NCBI GenBank assembly: GCA_022393335.1
Contig: JAJEKB010018398.1
Coordinates: 1 to 64,000, forward strand
Direction: 5' to 3'
DNA: 64,000 bases
Origin: Macrotrachela quadricornifera
Lineage: Eukaryota; Rotifera; Eurotatoria; Philodinida; Philodinidae
This document shows, piece after piece, positions 1 to 45,950 of the stretch; the stretch's first letter is position 1, and each line of letters begins with the position of its first letter. Made by a program: the position numbers and the translations under genes. The notes under the pieces are model-generated. The model had not been told where the DNA came from and searched no databases. It worked only from the letters and a program-made list of their open reading frames with translations.

Positions 1-786
1 GGTATGGCACCATTTAAAGATATTTTTTGGTCAAATGAAATTGAATCCGATGCACCTTATAAATCAACAGCAAGAGAAATATTACCTGATAGAGAAATTT
101 TAATTGCAACACTTTCAACTGGACCAGTTGCTGTTGGTGATGGAATTAATTATATTGATAAAATACGTATTATGAGATGTTGTCGTCAAGATGGTCTTAT
201 ATTAAAACCTTCACAACCATTAACAATGATTGATTTATTAATATCTGACTGGGCTATTTATAAAGGAATTTCACAAGGTGAACTTTATTCAACAAAAACA
301 ATTTTACAAAATGAAATATTTTCAATAATATTTGCCTCATCAATGAAACGTAATTATTCATTAATTCCATCAATGATTGGATCACCATCAGGGATTATTT
401 GGTCATTTGACAATCCATATGAAATATTTACTTTTAACCAAAATCATTCTCTTCAAATAACAAATGAAAAATGTAATGATACATCATTTTGTCTTTGGTA
501 TAGTTCACCATTATGGCAATTTAATGATTCTTTATTAACTAAATATGCTTTTATGGGTGAACTTAATAAATGGACATTTATTAGTCAACAAAGATTTTCT
601 TCTTTAACTATCAATTCTAATAATACTCAAATGACAATTATAGTTCAAGGTGTACCAAATGAAACAGTAGATATTCTAGTTTATCATTCAAAATTTCAAT
701 CTATTATTCATTTGATTTGTCATTTTTATACTGATAAATTACAAGCTCAGCTGATAATAAATGCTACAAATGTAGCTTGTTTATAA
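1..786 (+). CDS. 3' end of an uncharacterised glycoside-hydrolase-like protein (5' part outside window)
   Basis: The reading frame is open from base 1 (a Gly codon precedes the first ATG at 4), so this is probably the last exon of a gene that begins upstream. The 260 visible residues contain a block around residues 38-80 with LSTGPVAVGDG, IMRCCRQDGLILKP and a Pro-x-Thr-x-Ile-Asp stretch. Such a block occurs near the end of large, uncharacterised invertebrate proteins that resemble GH36/raffinose-synthase-type glycosidases; that resemblance is from memory and is weak. The remainder is beta-rich, with several N-glycosylation sequons (NYS, NHS, NDT, NDS, NET, NAT) fitting a secreted or lumenal protein. 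No transmembrane segment is visible. The frame ends with TAA at 784-786 and has no internal stop. Function is not assigned with confidence. Confidence 0.6.
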   Translation, partial: GMAPFKDIFWSNEIESDAPYKSTAREILPDREILIATLSTGPVAVGDGINYIDKIRIMRCCRQDGLILKPSQPLTMIDLLISDWAIYKGISQGELYSTKTILQNEIFSIIFASSMKRNYSLIPSMIGSPSGIIWSFDNPYEIFTFNQNHSLQITNEKCNDTSFCLWYSSPLWQFNDSLLTKYAFMGELNKWTFISQQRFSSLTINSNNTQMTIIVQGVPNETVDILVYHSKFQSIIHLICHFYTDKLQAQLIINATNVACL

Positions 787-36599: not shown

Positions 36600-37810
36600 G
36601 GAACGATAGCGGATATTCGATAATAATATTCTTTCGTCGTCTTATTTGTATATAGAAGTTTATTTCAAATATTTCAACATTCAATTCAATAACAAACTGG
36701 TTCTTGAGAACATGTCACTCTGTCCCATACTAATGCGATTTGTCTTAATCAATAAACTAATAAGGTTTCTTTATAGAATGAAAGTATCTCTTCTTTATTG
36801 TATTATCAAATACAAACTAATCAATTTTTTTTCTTATGAACATATTCTGGGTTTTTAATACTCAATTATTAATTCACTATAAAAAATTTAAAAAAACAAT
36901 AAAATAAAATTAATTACCGTTAATAATAAAAATAAGATAAAACAAAGAAATAATATAAAAGAATAATTGTTCGTTTATTTTTGGTTTGTTATAAAATACA
37001 TTTGGATATGAAAATGAAAGTGATTGTTTTATGATCACTATGGAAGAATAATTGAATTTTATTTGTAAAGAAACAAAAAAGAATTATTTAACATGTAAAT
37101 GGAACTAAAGAGAACAATGAATTTCATTGTATAAATAAACATTTTTTTTTCTTCTATAATAAAATATGTATTATATACAAATAGTTAGTAAGGTTGATCA
37201 AAAAGTCTGTTATCGTTAAATACAAATATGAAGATATTTTTCAATTTTATTTTATTAAATTTTTACAATAGCTTTTATAATTATTTACAGTAAGTTCAAT
37301 CATTTTAAATAATTTATTAAAAGTTATTTTTGAACTCTTTTAACATATCATATTTCATTTGCCTAATAAATCTCTAAAATTTGACAAAAAATCCTACCAG
37401 TTGAGTTCTGATGAAGTATGAATTTATTTTAAACAGGTTGATGAACAAGATATCTGATGTTAGTTGGATTAATGAAGATGAATCAAGAAAGAATGTCGTT
37501 CATAAAGGCAGATTTGAATTAAGACTTTTTTTTGTATATTCTTTCAAATGAAATATTCCTGTTTCTTTTCCATAGTGCAGATAATAGCAAGTGCATAAGT
37601 CATAAGTAATATATTAAAGTTTTTCGTGAATAAAATATGGAAATAAAATGAGATATTATATGTTCAAAATGTATAAAATTGCTAATCGATCATCAATGAT
37701 TTCATATTCACTGAATCTAGTGCTACATAATCATTGATTAAATAATTTTATCGATCGAAGCTAAACTAATTAAATAAATTAAATATTTCTATTATCTATT
37801 GTTGAAAATA
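36600..37810. other. Non-coding stretch
   Basis: Very AT-rich with no recognisable gene. GGTTGATCAAAAAGTC at about 37193 recalls a mariner end, but no partner was found. Confidence 0.45.
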
Positions 37811-37813
37811 AGT

Positions 37814-38369
37814 TGCTTGGACAAAATTCTTGTAACTTTTGAAAGGAAAATGATAGAGCCCTGTGGTTTTCGTTGTTAGGTAAAGCATCATAGATTACGT
37901 ATTACTATAAAATAAGCAATGCGAACTTGGTGAGTTGATTTTCAAATAACCAAATGAATAGTCCGGATCGAGTTCTATAATTCTAGACCAACCCCAAGTC
38001 TGTATCTTTTATGGTTCAAAAGTTATATATATTCTTTATAGAAGTATCGACTTCTAGCCAGTTATTAAATATCACTCAAACTTTAGCTAAATACCACTAT
38101 GTAACTTAGTATATCTACAAGCTTTCATGTCAAATGTTTTATAAATTATTGTTTGTATCCAAGTAAGAGTAAATATCTTTGCAAAAAAAATTTATCACTT
38201 TCGAATTGTAAGCAATGTAAAGGTTACATTCAAAGATTTATCATGGAATACCTTAGGTGAAGGTTCTCTTAATTCATATTAATACGTGCCCTGCTGTGCT
38301 CTATCTAACAACGAAAACCATAGGTCTCTATCCTTTTCCTTTCGAAAGTTATAAGGATTTTGTCCAAGC
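37814..38369. mobile_element. 556-bp non-autonomous element with about 75-bp inverted ends
   Basis: The left end starts GCTTGGACAAAATTCTTGTA and the right end, reverse-complemented, starts GCTTGGACAAAATCCTTATA. Both continue through GAAAGGAAAA(A/T/G)GATAGAG and GTGGTTTTCGTTGTTAG / ATGGTTTTCGTTGTTAG. The interior is unique and non-coding. Confidence 0.8.
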
Positions 38370-38647
38370 GGCATATTTTTAAAAATAAATAACATTTAAT
38401 AAAATAAAATAAAAAATATTTCTTTAGTTTTCTATTTTTATTTAATGATAATAGAGCTTTTGGTTAGATCTAAGTATATTGCAGATAAATTCAAAGATAT
38501 TATAAGTATTTATTCTTAATTTTAATTCTTTATTTTAAAAAGAAATATTTATATGTATAATTTAAAAATGATTCAATTAATATTAACTTATGAATATTTA
38601 GAATAGAAGAAGAAGATGAAAAAAAAAGAGAGATTAATTGATAAATA

Positions 38648-40417
38648 TTATATTGATGTTTTTTTTGCAATAATTCTAATTCCACCAACATTATTTTCAT
38701 TAAAAAGTGTAACAATTGATGTATAAAAATATTCTAAACGATTATAAATATCTTCCCCATGAATTTCAATTAACTGATTATTATTTTGACGAAATTGTTC
38801 TAATCGATTTTTAGTAAATAATGCCCAATCTAATGATAAATCAACAACTTTAATTATTTGAAAACCATGTTGAATTAAATTTAATTTATATTCATCTAAT
38901 GTTGGTAAATATCTACAATAAACATCATGTTCTAATATTTGTGATTCTTCATTTGTAATATTTCCTGTACAAATAAAATCTTCACAATAAAAAAATCCAT
39001 TTTCTTTAAGTAAACGATATGATTGTTTAAATAAATCAATTCTTTCAGTTTTTGTAAAATGTAAAACAGTTATCCAACTAACAATAGCTGTATAAAGATT
39101 TTCTTGTAAATGTTGTGCAACATTTAAAAAATTTCCACCTATATGATGAATTTTATCAGATAAACCACAACGATCAGTTAATTCACTTGCAAATTGTGAT
39201 AAATCATTTTGTAATTCAATTGCTAAAACTTTTAAATTATATTTTCCACCTAAATAACGAGCACAACCACCTAAATTTGATCCTATTTGAATTATCCAAT
39301 TTGAATCATTATTATTAAGATTAAGTTCATTAACAGCTAAATCTATTACTTCTGTACCATGATAATGATTTTGATCAAATGGAAGTAAATCTGTATATGA
39401 TATAGGACCTTTAGAAAGTCCAGCAACACGTAAATTATTTCTTAATGCAATTAATAATTCAGGTTTATTATAAAGACGCATTGATTTAATATCAATAGTT
39501 AATTTAGCAATTCTAGTATCAATAAATTGAATTGGATCCAATTTTTTCTTTTGATTTGTAAGTATTTGTGCTGTCTTAAGTGCATCAAGTGTTGTTTCAA
39601 TAGTTGATACAGAAATATTATTTGTTGCAGTAATATTAACTTTATTAAACCAAGCTTGTGCATCTTCTTGTTTTAAATGAAAATTTTTTGAAATTCTTTC
39701 AATTGATTGAATTGAATTTATTTTAAATAATTCACAAGCATTTTGTAAAGCAATAAACATATTTTGAATATGTTTTAATTTTTCAGAAATAATATTTATT
39801 GTTGATGCAATCATAAAACAAGGCCATGGTGTAATTATTTCTCCTATTTGACGAATTTCACCTTTATCATAATATGGTTTTTGCATAAAATATTCCCACA
39901 TAAATGCTGCTGTTGTATTATCATTAACTGATTTTCTTAAATTATCAAAATTATTATTAACAATAAATTCAATATCTGATTCTTTCCAACCATATTGACT
40001 TGCAAGTACACAACTCATTAAATGTGAACCACTTTGATATCGACTTATACCAAATTTTTCACCTTTTAAATCTTCAATTGAATTATAAGTTGTATTAGCT
40101 CCTGTACTAACAGACCATAATAAAGATGATTCAACATAAGTTCCAAGTAGACGAATATCTGAACCATGAGCTATATCATTAATTAAACCTTCAGTTAATG
40201 CAACAATAATATCAACTTCATTTGTTTTTAATTTATTAATCATAGCACCAGTACCTTCTTTTATTGAATGCCATTCAATATGAATTCCTTGTTTTTCAAA
40301 TAATTTTTCTTCTAAACCAATTTTCCATGGTTCATTAAAATGTTCAGGTACACCACCAACACGAAGAATATTAGTTTTATCATTATCATTTACATTATTT
40401 ATCTCGTTTTTCTCCAT
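38648..40417 (-). CDS. Fusion of NMT1/THI5-type periplasmic-binding-like domain and SAM-dependent methyltransferase
   Basis: A single intact exon of 589 residues. Residues about 15-290 resemble type-2 periplasmic binding proteins of the NMT1/SsuA/Ca3427 kind: ILRVGGVPEHFNEPWKIGLE opens the fold, then GTGAMINKLKTNEVDIIVAL, SIEDLKGEKFGISRYQSGSH and the second lobe to about 290. There is no signal peptide, so it should be cytosolic. Residues about 345-589 are a Rossmann methyltransferase of the glycine/sarcosine-N-methyltransferase or cyclopropane-synthase type: PFDQNHYHGTEVIDLA, motif I at IQIGSNLGGCARYLG (376-390), motif II around AIELQND (399-405), IVSWITVLHF (445-454) and LLKENGFFYCEDF (469-481). 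Motif I has Ser-Asn-Leu-Gly-Gly instead of GxGxG but keeps the Gly-rich turn. The two halves are known mainly from bacteria and fungi, so fusion or acquisition is inferred. The substrate is unknown; the binding domain may supply or sense a small amine or pyrimidine. Confidence 0.9.
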   Translation of the reverse strand: MEKNEINNVNDNDKTNILRVGGVPEHFNEPWKIGLEEKLFEKQGIHIEWHSIKEGTGAMINKLKTNEVDIIVALTEGLINDIAHGSDIRLLGTYVESSLLWSVSTGANTTYNSIEDLKGEKFGISRYQSGSHLMSCVLASQYGWKESDIEFIVNNNFDNLRKSVNDNTTAAFMWEYFMQKPYYDKGEIRQIGEIITPWPCFMIASTINIISEKLKHIQNMFIALQNACELFKINSIQSIERISKNFHLKQEDAQAWFNKVNITATNNISVSTIETTLDALKTAQILTNQKKKLDPIQFIDTRIAKLTIDIKSMRLYNKPELLIALRNNLRVAGLSKGPISYTDLLPFDQNHYHGTEVIDLAVNELNLNNNDSNWIIQIGSNLGGCARYLGGKYNLKVLAIELQNDLSQFASELTDRCGLSDKIHHIGGNFLNVAQHLQENLYTAIVSWITVLHFTKTERIDLFKQSYRLLKENGFFYCEDFICTGNITNEESQILEHDVYCRYLPTLDEYKLNLIQHGFQIIKVVDLSLDWALFTKNRLEQFRQNNNQLIEIHGEDIYNRLEYFYTSIVTLFNENNVGGIRIIAKKTSI

Positions 40418-40429
40418 TATGATTTACCT

Positions 40430-41955
40430 TTGTCCGTATTTTTGTTCACTTAAGTGACAAATGAATGTTCTTTTCTCTTTTACATATATATATATATACA
40501 TATATAAAGCATATTATGTTACGCTTCAGTGCATCATTGTCGCCCATCACATTGATAAATACTATTCTATAGACATATATCTACCAATTTATGATACAGT
40601 AGCTTCTTATTTGTGAATATGAGCATAAATATTATTTTAAAATTCTATAATTTTATTTCAAAGTTTAAAATAGAGTTTGGTGCATATAAATCTTTTCAAT
40701 TTTTTACCATGAATTTATTGTAATTTATAGAGTTCGCTAAATTATAGAGAGAGATCATTTACTGTTAGCGCTCTTTATTAATCTTTGGTTCGAAATTCGA
40801 CCAATATATTTTATATCATTTACAACGTGGAATCTAATACTGAATAGAGAACAATTAACTAATCGAAATACTTCAACATTTATTTACAATAGATAACGGT
40901 ATCAGAAGCATAGTTTATTTCGATTTGGTGAATATTCATAACACTATTATCAATCAAACTAAACTTGTATCATCGTTGAAACCGATACATATAAGTATTA
41001 GACTACATGTAAATATCCAGATTATAAAAACTTTAAATCGCAATCGAAAGAATTTTTTTAGTAGAATAAATAAATATTGATTCGTTGAAATAAATCGAGA
41101 TATTCACATCATTTTTAAGATGTTATACTTCTTTCGCATATACCTGCTTTTACGATCCTTACTCATGCAATCGTCATATTATTACTTGAACAATACACAA
41201 ACATTTTATTCACTTAAAATCATTAGAATATATTGAACTCTTTCTTATAGTCATAAAAATACTTCATTTTATTTTTACATTCACCATTCTCACTCGATCT
41301 ATAGTAGTATTACTCTCCCAAAATTAGTCATATACTGAAATAAAATATGTCGCATAAGTCTTTCTTTGTGACACAGTACACGATACTTTAAAGTACGACA
41401 CGAGGTACGTAGTTTGAACCTATTATCCACCATATTTAATTATATTTTAAAGAAAAGAGAAGGATCATCAACTTGCAACATCTTTATAGACTAAAATCTT
41501 TTTTCAAAATGAATCTATTAAATTCATAATTATGTTTAAGAAATTAGTAAATTTAAATTTTTTTCAAATGAAATTTATAAAAGAATTCGTTTACAATGAT
41601 TGAACAAGTTTAATAGGGTGTAACTGATTTGTATTTATATATAAAACCATAGAACTATAGAACTACCATCTCTCGTATATCTTGTCCATTCAGAACTGTT
41701 CGCATGTTATGTCATTCATTTTTTTAAAACTCTTTTCAACCTTCTCTCTTTCTTTCTGTGGTCATGATGGAAGCTCCTGTCTCAAGAAAAAATATTTTAA
41801 CCGAAGAAAATTTTTAGAAATATATGGTTTCTTAATGTATCAGTGTCATAATTTCCTATTTCATCTTTCCAAAATAAAAGCTATTGCCTGCGATAAAAGC
41901 ATGCCATTACATATTTCCAATATTGATTGTCTTAATAGATGGAATTTAATTTAGA
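40430..41955. other. Non-coding stretch with a (TA)n run
   Basis: The upstream region of the minus-strand fusion gene; a TA/CATATA microsatellite lies at about 40482-40505. Nothing else is recognised. Confidence 0.5.
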
Positions 41956-41959
41956 AATA

Positions 41960-44845
41960 TATATGAGCTAAAAACTCCACCACAGAGACTGCAATCCAGC
42001 GGCTTCTGTGTCGTTCGCAAGTTCGGATAAAGGAGGAGCGTTTGACGGAAGAGGTGCAGATACCGCCGTTTGTAAAAGGAACAAGACGACAGAAACCAAC
42101 CATGAACGACTTCAACACGAAACCATACTGGCTCGAACGGCGCCCGGGAAAACAAGGTACACGTCCTCTGTCGAGTGACCAGGGCAGAGTCGAAAAATTG
42201 GCGACTGGAAAAAATTCATACGACATAATCGAAATTTCCGAAGTGCGATGGACAGGAAAAGATGAAACACCGAATGGAGATTTCATCTAGTCAGGAGAAG
42301 AATCCTCACATACGAGGGATGTGAGGTTCTTACTAAGTGCACAAGCTAAAAAGGCATTAGTAGGATATAATCCAACCAGTTCACAAATGATTTCGGCACG
42401 ATTCGATGCAGCATCATTCAAAATCTCAGCAATACACGTATATGCACCAATTTCATCATCCTCAGAAGCAGATATTGAAGCATTCTATAACGATATTGAG
42501 GAAGCATAACAAAGACAGATAAAAAAAGAATATACTTATCCTGACAGGAGATTGGAACGTTAGAATTTGTTGTGATAATACAGATTGGAAATCCATAATG
42601 GGAAAATGTGGGTATGGCGATAGAGACGAACGCACAGAACGCCTCCTAGAATTTATGACAGTGCATGATCTCTACATATGTAATGTAAAATTTCAACATA
42701 AACCACATCGAAAATGAACCTGGGCATCACCAGATGGCATTCGTAAGAATATGATTGACTTAATTCTCATCCAGCGAAGATGGAAGACCTAGGTCACCAA
42801 CTGCCGAACATTTCAGAGTGCAGACATAAGCTCAGATCACTCACTAGTGTTGTGTAATATCAACTTGAAACTTAAGAAACTGCACAACAAACCACAGAAA
42901 TGCTACAAAGCTAATGTAAATCGACTGAGAAATAAGAAAATAAAGCAATCATACAGTGCCACTCTAACGATACAAATGAAAGATATAGAGCCATCATGTA
43001 GTCTAGAAGAACATGCAATCAAAATTATAGTAGAGACAACTCTATCTGCAAAAAGAACAATAAAAAAACGATGGATTTCCGAGGAAACATTAAAACTAGC
43101 AGACGAAAAGCGCAGACTAAAACAATTAAAAAAAAAGTTTTCTTAGAATATATACAATAATATAAAGGCTTATGTAGGAAAGTTAAGAGATCAGCAAGAC
43201 AGGACAAAGAACATTGGATACAAGACCAATGTGAGCAAGCTGAAAAAGGTCTAAATATTGGAAATATAAGAGAAGCGTATGGCCTCATACAAGTGTTAAG
43301 AAAAGAATTTGTACCTCGATTAAATGTCATACGAAATCAAGAGGGAACAATATTACAGACAAATGAAGACATCAAACAAAGGTGGACACAATATTGCAGC
43401 AGTCTGTATAAAGACTCTGGAGGCGGAGACGGGATGGTAAAAGAACTTGAAGACATTGCACTTCCCGGAAACGAAGATCCTCAGGATATCTTGTACTCAG
43501 AGATACAAGAAACGATAAATTCATTGAAAAGAAATAAAAGTTCAGGATCAAACGGCGTAACAGCGGAAATGCTACAAGCTGGAGCGAACCGCTAGCACGG
43601 TAAATCTATAATAAAGTACTCATAATAGTACTGCTAAATATATTAAAAAATCATCTGAATCCGTACCTCGCAGAAGAGCAGGCAGGATTTAGAAAAGACA
43701 GGAATACCGTATATCAAATATTAACGCTTCAATTGTTGGCTGAAAAGACAAAAAGACAGGGCAAGAAAATAAACAACTGCTTTATAGATTTTCAAAAAGC
43801 ATTCGATACGATCAAACATAAAATTATCTGGTCTATGCTAAAATCCTATGATGTCGATACAAAGATGGTCACCTTGCTACAAAAGATCTATGAAAAGTCA
43901 CAGTCAGCTGTTGGCATTGGTAAAGATAATGGAGAGTGGTTTCGGACAGGTGTAGGAACTAGACAAGGCATCCCTCTGTCATTACTCCTGTTCATCGCAT
44001 ATCTCGAGCGAGTAATGGACCAGGTAAGACAGAACACCTGCGGAATCAATATTAGTGGAATATTAATAAATAACCTAAGATTCACCGACGATATTGACCT
44101 TACCGAAGAAGACGTTAGTTCACTTCAACGCCAAGTAGAGCTAATTAAAACAGCTTTTGAACAAGCTGGACTAATCTTAAATATAAAGAAAACCAAAACC
44201 ATGGTATTTGGAGACAGAAATATTGATAATAGCATCCAAGTAGCAGGAAATATCATGAAAAACGTGAAAAAATTTGAATATTTAGGGAGTCTCATGACAT
44301 GGGATAATAACTGTTCAGTGGAAATAAAGAGGGCAATAGAATAAGCGGCAGGTATAATAGCTTCTTTGAGACACATATGGAATAGCAAGAAACTGAAGCT
44401 ACAAAATAAACTTAGAATCCTAGCCACATGTGTGTTCAGTATCCTATTATACGCGTCAGAGACATGGATCCTAAAAGAAGCAGACAAGAAAAAATTATTG
44501 TCATTCGAAATGAAATATTACCGACGGGTTCTAAAAATTAATTGGCAAGATATGGTACAAAATGAAGATATCAGGAAAAAGATATCAAAGGAAAAGACCA
44601 TAATAGACATCATCAAGAAGAGGAAACTGAGGTTATTTGGCCACATCTGCATATTGGACGGAAAATCTCGAAGGAGACGTCCATGTAGAGAATGGCTAGA
44701 TGAAATAACAGAATAGTGTCAGCGCAGTTGTCATGACCTGTTCCACCTTGTGCAAGACCGGAGGGCATGAAAAAATCTTATCCCGTAAATGGTTGGCCCC
44801 AACGGGCGCTAAGCCTATGGGACATCATGATGATGATGATATGAA
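41960..44845 (+). mobile_element. APE-type non-LTR retrotransposon (LINE), dead
   Basis: Coding blocks run in order but in broken frames. The AP-like endonuclease shows IIEISEVRWTGKDETPNGDF (42228-42286), FKISAIHVYAPISSSSEADI (about 42417-42475), TWASPDGIRKNMIDLILI (about 42718-42770) and ADISSDHSLVL (42823-42850). The reverse transcriptase shows EEQAGFRKDRNTVYQ (about 43675-43715), FIDFQKAFDTIKHKIIW (43782-43833), GVGTRQGIPLSLLLF, the active site RFTDDIDL (about 44080-44100, Asp pair kept) and KKFEYLGSLMTW. The C-terminal RIL/YASETWIL and RRKL-like RLFGHI blocks follow to about 44716. About 250 bp of RT (blocks 0-1) is missing near 43590-43610. The 3' end carries a GATGATGATGAT tail at about 44827-44840, typical of CR1/RTE-like elements. 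No longer functional. Confidence 0.88.
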
Positions 44846-44849
44846 CTAA

Positions 44850-45950
44850 AGAATTGTCTTCATATTTTGATAGACGACAATCGTGTGTCTTTCAGAAACT
44901 AATCGGAAAAGTATATACTAGAGTGAAATTCATGCTAAATTTCCTGGTAAATACTACTGTTTTCCTTCAAGTAATAACTAAATCTTCAAAATGTAGTGGA
45001 TAAACAGTTTTGAAATTTCTTAAGAAACCTTTTTAATGATTTTTCATATGGCTAGGTAAGTTGCACATGTTCATTCTACATCTACTTCGTATTATTTCGT
45101 ACAATAAAAGTCTTCTACTATCAAGCAATCGATAATATATTGATTCTATAAATTTTTACATTGAATGTAGATTTTCTTCAGCTTACATATTACTCAAAAT
45201 GGCTTTTTTTGCTACTAATATGAAAATATTATCAACGTTTTTAAAACCTTTAATATATCAATCAATAGCTTTAATTGATCTTTATATGACGGAACAAGAT
45301 GCAAGTTGTAAAAAATATCTAATCATCAAGTTGCATCGTTGACCTTCTTTTGAAGATACTTTTCTAGTCATTGTATTTACCTCTTTATTCTAAGTCCAGA
45401 ACGAAGTATATGATACAGATAGATATTATATAACCTCTTACAATTAAAATTAATCAAACGAACACTAGTAAATCAGCAATACAAGCTTAGCTTATGAACT
45501 GATAATTCCTGCCACAAATCAAAATAGTTACAACTTGGAAACGGAATAAATATAGTGCGCTAACGGATACTTTATTAATGGATTGAAACGATCGTATTTA
45601 CACTATCTACAGGCCTAGATTACACTTTAAATAGACCTATTGTGATCAGATTAGAATGATTATTTATGTTACTTTCTGTGATAAATAATATTTTTGAAGA
45701 TTCTTCTCTCTTCTCCATTTTTGATCATGCAATTGATGAAGAGCTTCTTTTTCTTTTTGTTTCTGCTCACATTGTTTATATTTTGCATTGTCATAATTTA
45801 TCCATGCATAGTATATTTTTTTGCTTTGTCATGTATCCATTATGTGTATACTTCATGAGATTATTTTAATCGATTGATATACGTTGTAAATTCGCGAGAA
45901 GTTATTGTAGATTTCTACATAAAATCACTTAATTTTTCTTCATAAAGACA
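44850..45950. other. Non-coding stretch
   Basis: AT-rich sequence between the LINE tail and the aldo/keto reductase remnant; no gene seen. The open frame at 45666-45869 shows no recognisable content. Confidence 0.45.

Follow-up and report, generated by a model that had tools for sequence, protein, structure and literature searches.

Positions 1 to 64,000 of contig JAJEKB010018398.1 from the bdelloid rotifer Macrotrachela quadricornifera (assembly GCA_022393335.1), hereafter the window, contain a single-exon gene in which a Ca3427-type domain with the fold of periplasmic binding proteins (PBP) is joined to an S-adenosylmethionine (SAM)-dependent methyltransferase (Table 1). An initial annotation, made from the DNA letters alone, had proposed an uninterrupted frame of 589 codons with an NMT1/SsuA/Ca3427-type N-terminal half, a Rossmann methyltransferase half carrying a motif I, and no signal peptide. 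Each of these points held in the present analyses, which place the gene on the minus strand and yielded a significant profile match for either half. In this study we describe the two domains, the distribution and history of their fusion, and the function that they might perform together.

The gene and its two haplotypes

The open frame starts with an ATG at 40417 and closes with a stop ending at 38648, and the plus strand of the same interval holds many stops and no open frame. Under an independent-base model with the composition of the window, the chance of 589 stop-free codons from one start is about 1.6e-22. The best candidate matches listed for the gene in the assembly were the window and two further contigs only (C946 and C947), which represent the other haplotype and in which the frame is intact, with neither stop nor frameshift. 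The gene differs between haplotypes at 12 of 1,770 bases and at 7 residues (dN 0.005, dS 0.014), the identity across 4,544 aligned bases being 96.8%. C946 and C947 show no difference across 4,767 compared bases, which points to duplication of a contig during assembly. The gene is genuine, its product has good support as a binding-domain–methyltransferase fusion, and structure prediction places both domains in a confidently modelled joint fold.

Table 1. Features of the fusion gene and of its surroundings in the window
Feature	Position	Strand	Basis
Single-exon gene, 589 aa, Ca3427-type binding domain and SAM methyltransferase	38648..40417	minus	frame, Pfam, relatives
PBP2_Ca3427-like domain, residues 15-305	39503..40375	minus	Pfam, pocket residues
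Core pocket residues E25, H26, E76, W101, R126, S129, G130, W174, E175, W198, W256			
Class I SAM methyltransferase, PMT/CMAS-like, residues 308-588	38654..39496	minus	Pfam, structural and profile matches
SAM-binding motif I, residues 374-390, IIQIGSNLGGCARYLGG	39248..39298	minus	translation
His453, counterpart of Plasmodium PMT catalytic His132	39059..39061	minus	profile alignment
Reverse-transcriptase fragment, RVT_1	43733-44344		
DUF6451 match	44366-44716		

The binding domain retains the pocket core of its relatives

The N-terminal half matched the Pfam families PBP2_Ca3427_like (PF22384; 98.8 bits, cut-off 27) and NMT1 (37.1 bits, cut-off 20.5), and shares the fold of CA3427 from Candida albicans, the protein after which the family is named (PDB 2x7p/2x7q; Santini et al. 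2011, PMC3073944). The pocket residues of CA3427 listed in that paper were mapped onto the window protein by alignment, and E11, H12, W88, R112, W163, E164, W187 and W245 are all kept, as E25, H26, W101, R126, W174, E175, W198 and W256, respectively. Elsewhere the two proteins differ, CA3427 T167, K170, W190 and P85 being replaced by M178, P181, F201 and S98.

Seven positions (W101, R126, G130, W174, E175, W198 and W256) were invariant in 39/39 fused rows, in 35/35 stand-alone rows, which include metagenome proteins that are perhaps in some cases fragments, and in all 75 stand-alone bacterial loci, a set free of that weakness. E76 is a glutamate in 38 of the 39 fused rows and at 74 of the 75 loci; the corresponding counts for E25 are 33/39 (five rows gapped, one with alanine) and 75/75. 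The bacterial loci were found partly via the patterns GGVPEHF and SRxxSGSHLM, so that the conservation of E25/H26 and S129/G130 among them arises partly by construction; W101, W174, E175, W198 and W256 lie outside these patterns. Because the pocket core is conserved in both kinds of protein, fused and stand-alone members are likely to share a ligand or to have similar ones.

The methyltransferase domain retains a catalytic histidine

The C-terminal half exceeded the gathering score of the Pfam family CMAS (PF02353; 40.7 bits against 27), and its closest structural and profile matches were phosphoethanolamine methyltransferases (PMT). Throughout the set of 96 fused sequences the glycines of motif I are almost invariant (G379 in 96/96, G384 in 94/96). 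The profile alignment pairs His132 of the Plasmodium enzyme PfPMT with H453, invariant in 96/96, whereas PfPMT Asp128 pairs with I449, a position at which all 96 carry Leu, Ile or Met, and the phosphate-binding Tyr160 (PvPMT Tyr157) pairs with F481, where Phe, Trp, Leu, Ile or Met, and never Tyr, occurs in 96/96. Y316, a tyrosine in 95 of 96, falls near the place of PfPMT Tyr19 and may be its counterpart, as judged only from the range of the structural match (308..587 on 12..266). These residues are relevant to function in the parasite enzymes: PDB titles record the PfPMT mutants H132A, D128A and Y19F, and a putative dyad Y16/H129, together with the phosphate ligands Y24, Y157, Y178 and R176, is given for PvPMT (PMC4357015). 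With H453 kept and the equivalents of Asp128 and Tyr160 lost, the methyltransferase half looks catalytic, and its acceptor should be a compound other than phosphoethanolamine.

A search with this half alone returned 11 matches, several of which were fusions already listed or apparent fragments of them. The clearest single-domain relative is a protein of 275 aa (P0127), a candidate unfused version.

Distribution of the fusion

The protein search identified 169 relatives, of which 120 were listed. Among these, full or near-full fusions with a species name occur in the bdelloids Adineta steineri, A. ricciae, A. vaga, several Rotaria and Didymodactylos carnosus and, elsewhere, in the choanoflagellates Salpingoeca rosetta and Monosiga brevicollis, in Arcella intermedia and in Phaeodactylibacter. 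Several transcriptome-derived eukaryote proteins (e.g. P0028, P0033, P0037, P0040 and P0053) also have the fused frame, a point in favour of a single transcript in the organisms concerned.

Bacterial fusions are rare. When 84,980 species were scanned with one genome each, the fusion was present at five of the best 80 loci examined among at least 575 relatives, one of them in a Myxococcales metagenome-assembled genome. Within the order of Phaeodactylibacter, 63/298 genomes matched the query and four of the 298 carried the fusion (one being the centre genome); across Bacteroidota the domain was detected in 44/395 genomes, against 0/14 control genomes, and of the 44 only the centre genome had a matching frame that exceeded 314 aa.

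The fusion is thus no singular animal curiosity: it is an old, apparently unstudied enzyme family of bdelloids, protists and a few bacteria. The initial annotation had regarded such a protein as unexpected in an animal, a view that its relatives contradict, and had named membership of a common known animal family as grounds for dropping its reading; the fusion is indeed common in bdelloids, but no description of it was found in a literature search, to which most subscription journals were closed.

Two relatives carry further domains. In P0019 (Rotaria sp. Silwood2) the PBP domain and a partial methyltransferase are followed by a Sir2 domain, through either a gene-model merger or a true rearrangement. 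Monosiga P0061 has an extra nucleotidyltransferase and is probably a merger, because the join crosses cysteine-rich low-complexity sequence.

A proposed methyltransferase gated or fed by a binding domain

The window protein lacks a hydrophobic N-terminus (best 19-residue Kyte-Doolittle mean about 0.02 within the first 40 residues), and the PEHF motif begins at most 20 residues from the start at 72/75 stand-alone bacterial loci, leaving no room for a signal peptide; the count becomes 74/80 when the five fused loci are added, although at three of these the called frame is too long. On these grounds the family looks cytosolic and is therefore no importer component that strayed into an animal, so that the link to ABC (ATP-binding cassette) importers drawn at first was misleading.

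We propose that the protein is a cytosolic two-domain enzyme whose methyltransferase is gated or fed by the binding domain, a reading to which we assign a probability of about one half. The N-terminal domain, a Venus flytrap of the CA3427 subfamily, would capture one specific small metabolite, probably the same as that of the stand-alone relatives, and the C-terminal domain would work as a SAM-dependent N- or O-methyltransferase of small molecules, in which His453, perhaps with Tyr316, would take the role of the His/Tyr pair of PMTs. Given a fixed orientation of the domains, ligand capture by the first would gate the second or supply its substrate. We infer that both sites are active and in communication, and a ligand-gated or channelling methyltransferase is a fair reading of the data, as had been suggested from the start.

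Several points weigh against this proposal. Our literature search found no activity, ligand or acceptor for any member of the family, and CA3427's own paper was unable to assign it a ligand (PMC3073944). The pocket is incompletely conserved: Thr167, one of four polar residues termed strictly conserved in that paper, is replaced by M178 in the window protein, and position 128, a glycine at 75/75 stand-alone bacterial loci, is glycine in only 11/39 fused rows (T 11, Q 10, N 3, R 3, S 1), so that the ligand or the coupling of the fused proteins may differ from that of their stand-alone relatives. Methionine is also found at the Thr167 position in 14/39 fused and 10/75 stand-alone bacterial rows, and this position is therefore not defining for the wider PF22384 family. 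Moreover, stand-alone relatives exist in eukaryotes (e.g. P0181 of Sphaeroforma), which suggests that the binding domain can work without a methyltransferase, and the bacterial neighbours of the domain gave no consistent pathway or theme.

These neighbours bear on the first of the alternatives, a bifunctional enzyme in which the PBP-fold half would itself be catalytic, like Thi5, MqnA/MqnD or DszB, and the methyltransferase would perform the next step on its product. Two genomes have a ThiD-like kinase divergent to the fusion, but their fusions share 74% identity, so that the pair comes close to a single observation, and the kinases, at 130 and 124 bits, fall short of the 205 bits required for ThiD. 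A nucleoside phosphorylase lies near 63/75 stand-alone copies, but was near none of five fused copies in a first set and at 15/39 loci in a second, including 0/20 from the order of Phaeodactylibacter, several of them on short contigs; the flavobacterial synteny to which it belongs (2OG-dioxygenase/SUI1/DUF1835/phosphorylase/PBP) is real and was likewise seen at 0/20 of these loci. The CCCFC motif, a hallmark of Thi5, occurs in none of the 96 fused sequences, of which 94 have TPW[PS]CF, and C200 of the window protein is a serine in CA3427 and an alanine in 2/12 bacterial fusions. We regard catalysis by the binding half as less likely than our proposal, and as its main rival. Among the remaining neighbours, a LysR-type gene lies 3' of the fusion in L004, L005 and L118 (by Pfam scan in L005, by eye in the others), and a carotenoid-oxygenase-type gene (RPE65) lies upstream in L007. 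The 75 immediate neighbours sampled fall into 69 families, the 25 commonest of which include no ABC permease or ATPase gene.

A second alternative takes the methyltransferase for one of the phosphoethanolamine or sarcosine/dimethylglycine N-methyltransferase type, with the PBP half sensing a methylated amine such as choline or betaine. Besides the resemblance to PMTs, it could draw on a weak NCBIfam match to sarcosine/dimethylglycine N-methyltransferase and on the several invariant Trp and Glu residues of the pocket, since Trp/Glu-rich pockets recall cation-binding aromatic boxes. The replacement of the Asp128 and Tyr160 equivalents in every fused sequence and NCBIfam scores far under cut-off (28 of 550 bits) make such a specificity improbable, and a gated or fed methyltransferase with another acceptor remains our preferred reading.

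Origin and history of the family

In the full-length tree (67 rows) the window protein falls in a clade of 13 rows with Adineta and Rotaria (support 100), outside which stand Didymodactylos and then P0026 (98 each); this side of the tree consists of eukaryotic and unnamed rows, and the opposite side of the bacterial fusions and P0104. A tree of the methyltransferase half set all 40 family rows (P0127 and the 39 sampled fusions) apart from the methyltransferases of other families that were included, 27 in number and all from bacterial genomes (98); its bacterial and eukaryotic subgroups were moderately supported (85 and 90). In the tree of the PBP half, a eukaryotic side of fused, stand-alone and DJ-1-fused proteins, many of them unnamed, was split from the bacterial rows (98), P0104 again grouping with bacteria.

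Monophyly of the 39 fused PBP halves to the exclusion of all other rows was rejected (p-AU 3e-18), since the eukaryotic side has stand-alone rows nested within the fused ones; some of these may be exon fragments from metagenome gene calls, but P0181 is an annotated single-domain gene. A group made up of the 27 bacterial rows of the stand-alone, DUF1569 and hydrolase kinds was not rejected (p-AU 0.82), and the opposite cut, separating all 39 bacterial rows from the rest, is a branch of the same unrooted tree (92); both cuts are thus compatible with it and the position of the root decides. Were the root to lie among the stand-alone rows of bacteria, both halves would fit one fusion event, after which some eukaryotes lost the methyltransferase.

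The horizontal acquisition raised by the initial annotation accordingly stands as a possibility, with a direct bacterial source disfavoured. Since the window protein clusters with rows that are eukaryotic or unnamed, and separately from the fusions of bacteria, a donor of the rotifer gene, if there was one, was more likely a protist than a bacterium, and old vertical descent with losses is also possible. Recent direct transfer from Bacteroidota to the rotifer could appeal to the presence of the domain, and of some fused copies, in that phylum, and bdelloids are known for foreign genes; the separation from the bacterial fused clade, repeated with each half alone, and the rarity of fused copies, at 4/298 genomes of one order, render it very unlikely. 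That the gene is an artefact of assembly or gene modelling, as the possible mergers P0019 and P0061 might suggest for this family, is a negligible prospect in view of the uninterrupted frame on both haplotypes and the fused transcriptome-derived proteins.

For the PBP family, Santini et al. (2011) proposed that an early eukaryote acquired it from Bacteroidetes; they listed homologues in Monosiga and Trichoplax, the proteins in their tree, these two included, being truncated at the boundaries of CA3427 (PMC3073944). Only tentatively, we extend this to a scenario in which one fusion event took place in Bacteroidota and its product passed to eukaryotes at an early stage, where choanoflagellates, amoebae and bdelloid rotifers retained it as a ligand-gated or two-step metabolite methyltransferase, its binding module, with the bacterial pocket core, being re-used with DJ-1, DUF1569 and hydrolase partners. 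If true, a widespread, unrecognised eukaryotic enzyme family would mark an unknown conserved metabolite pathway.

Other partners of the binding domain were observed alongside. A DJ-1/PfpI domain precedes it in P0154, P0156, P0157 and P0177, which form one clade nested in the eukaryotic PBP side (100). Four bacterial proteins of 452-457 aa (L093, L094, L098 and L100) have about 165 extra C-terminal residues that may be DUF1569, as indicated by a weak Pfam match in L098 and none in L093, the two scanned; three of the four adjoin a 114-aa frame resembling, by eye, a ribosomal protein. At L119:4905-6620, in a bacterial genome, an alpha/beta hydrolase is fused to the domain, and hydrolase-fold genes make up 3/75 immediate neighbours of stand-alone bacterial copies.

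Surroundings of the gene

About 1.3 kb upstream of the start codon, a segment of about 4.06 kb (41692-45747) is absent from the homologous stretch of C946 and looks like a heterozygous retroelement insertion, because it encloses the RVT_1 fragment and the DUF6451 match (Table 1). Downstream of the stop, an inverted repeat of about 125 bases (37792-37916 and 38268-38392, 77-79% identity) is found on the other haplotype too.

Comparison with known systems

CA3427 and most bacterial members of its family are single-domain proteins, unlike the fused window protein, and the word methyltransferase is absent from the CA3427 paper. There, CA3427 is proposed as an antifungal target with its ligand and function unassigned, its crystal structure having been available since 2011 (PMC3073944). 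The fusion is the strongest functional hint here on the use of the ligand of a Ca3427-type domain, and the naturally occurring fusions of bdelloids, choanoflagellates and a few bacteria would allow binding and methylation to be assayed jointly.

On the methyltransferase side, the PMTs of Plasmodium, plants and nematodes share about 20% identity with the window protein, which keeps the catalytic histidine of PfPMT, lacks the equivalents of D128 and Tyr160, and has a fused PBP domain. The window protein lies above the gathering score of PF02353, the family of cyclopropane and mycolic acid synthases, whereas its NCBIfam matches to cyclopropane synthase (29.5 of 600 and 17 of 400 bits) and to sarcosine/dimethylglycine N-methyltransferase are weak and far under the equivalog cut-offs.

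On the binding side, the score against NCBIfam SsuA_fam (49.1 bits) stays below the 163.5 bits that would indicate an SsuA type importer protein. Thi5/NMT1, the HMP-P synthase, differs in its cysteine motif, and no binding-site residue of CA3427 is conserved in THI13 according to Santini et al. (PMC3073944). Thi5, MqnA, MqnD and DszB provide enzymatic precedents for the PBP fold outside the periplasm. A precedent of another kind is found in NrtC and CmpC, in which the partner of the PBP domain is an ABC ATPase. Their cytosolic C-terminal domains, only 11-13% identical to the PBP half of the window protein, are joined to a transporter ATPase and termed regulatory in one entry. If the binding domain gates the enzyme, the rotifer gene would represent metabolite sensing of the CmpC/NrtC kind that acts on a methyltransferase instead and has been retained by an animal.
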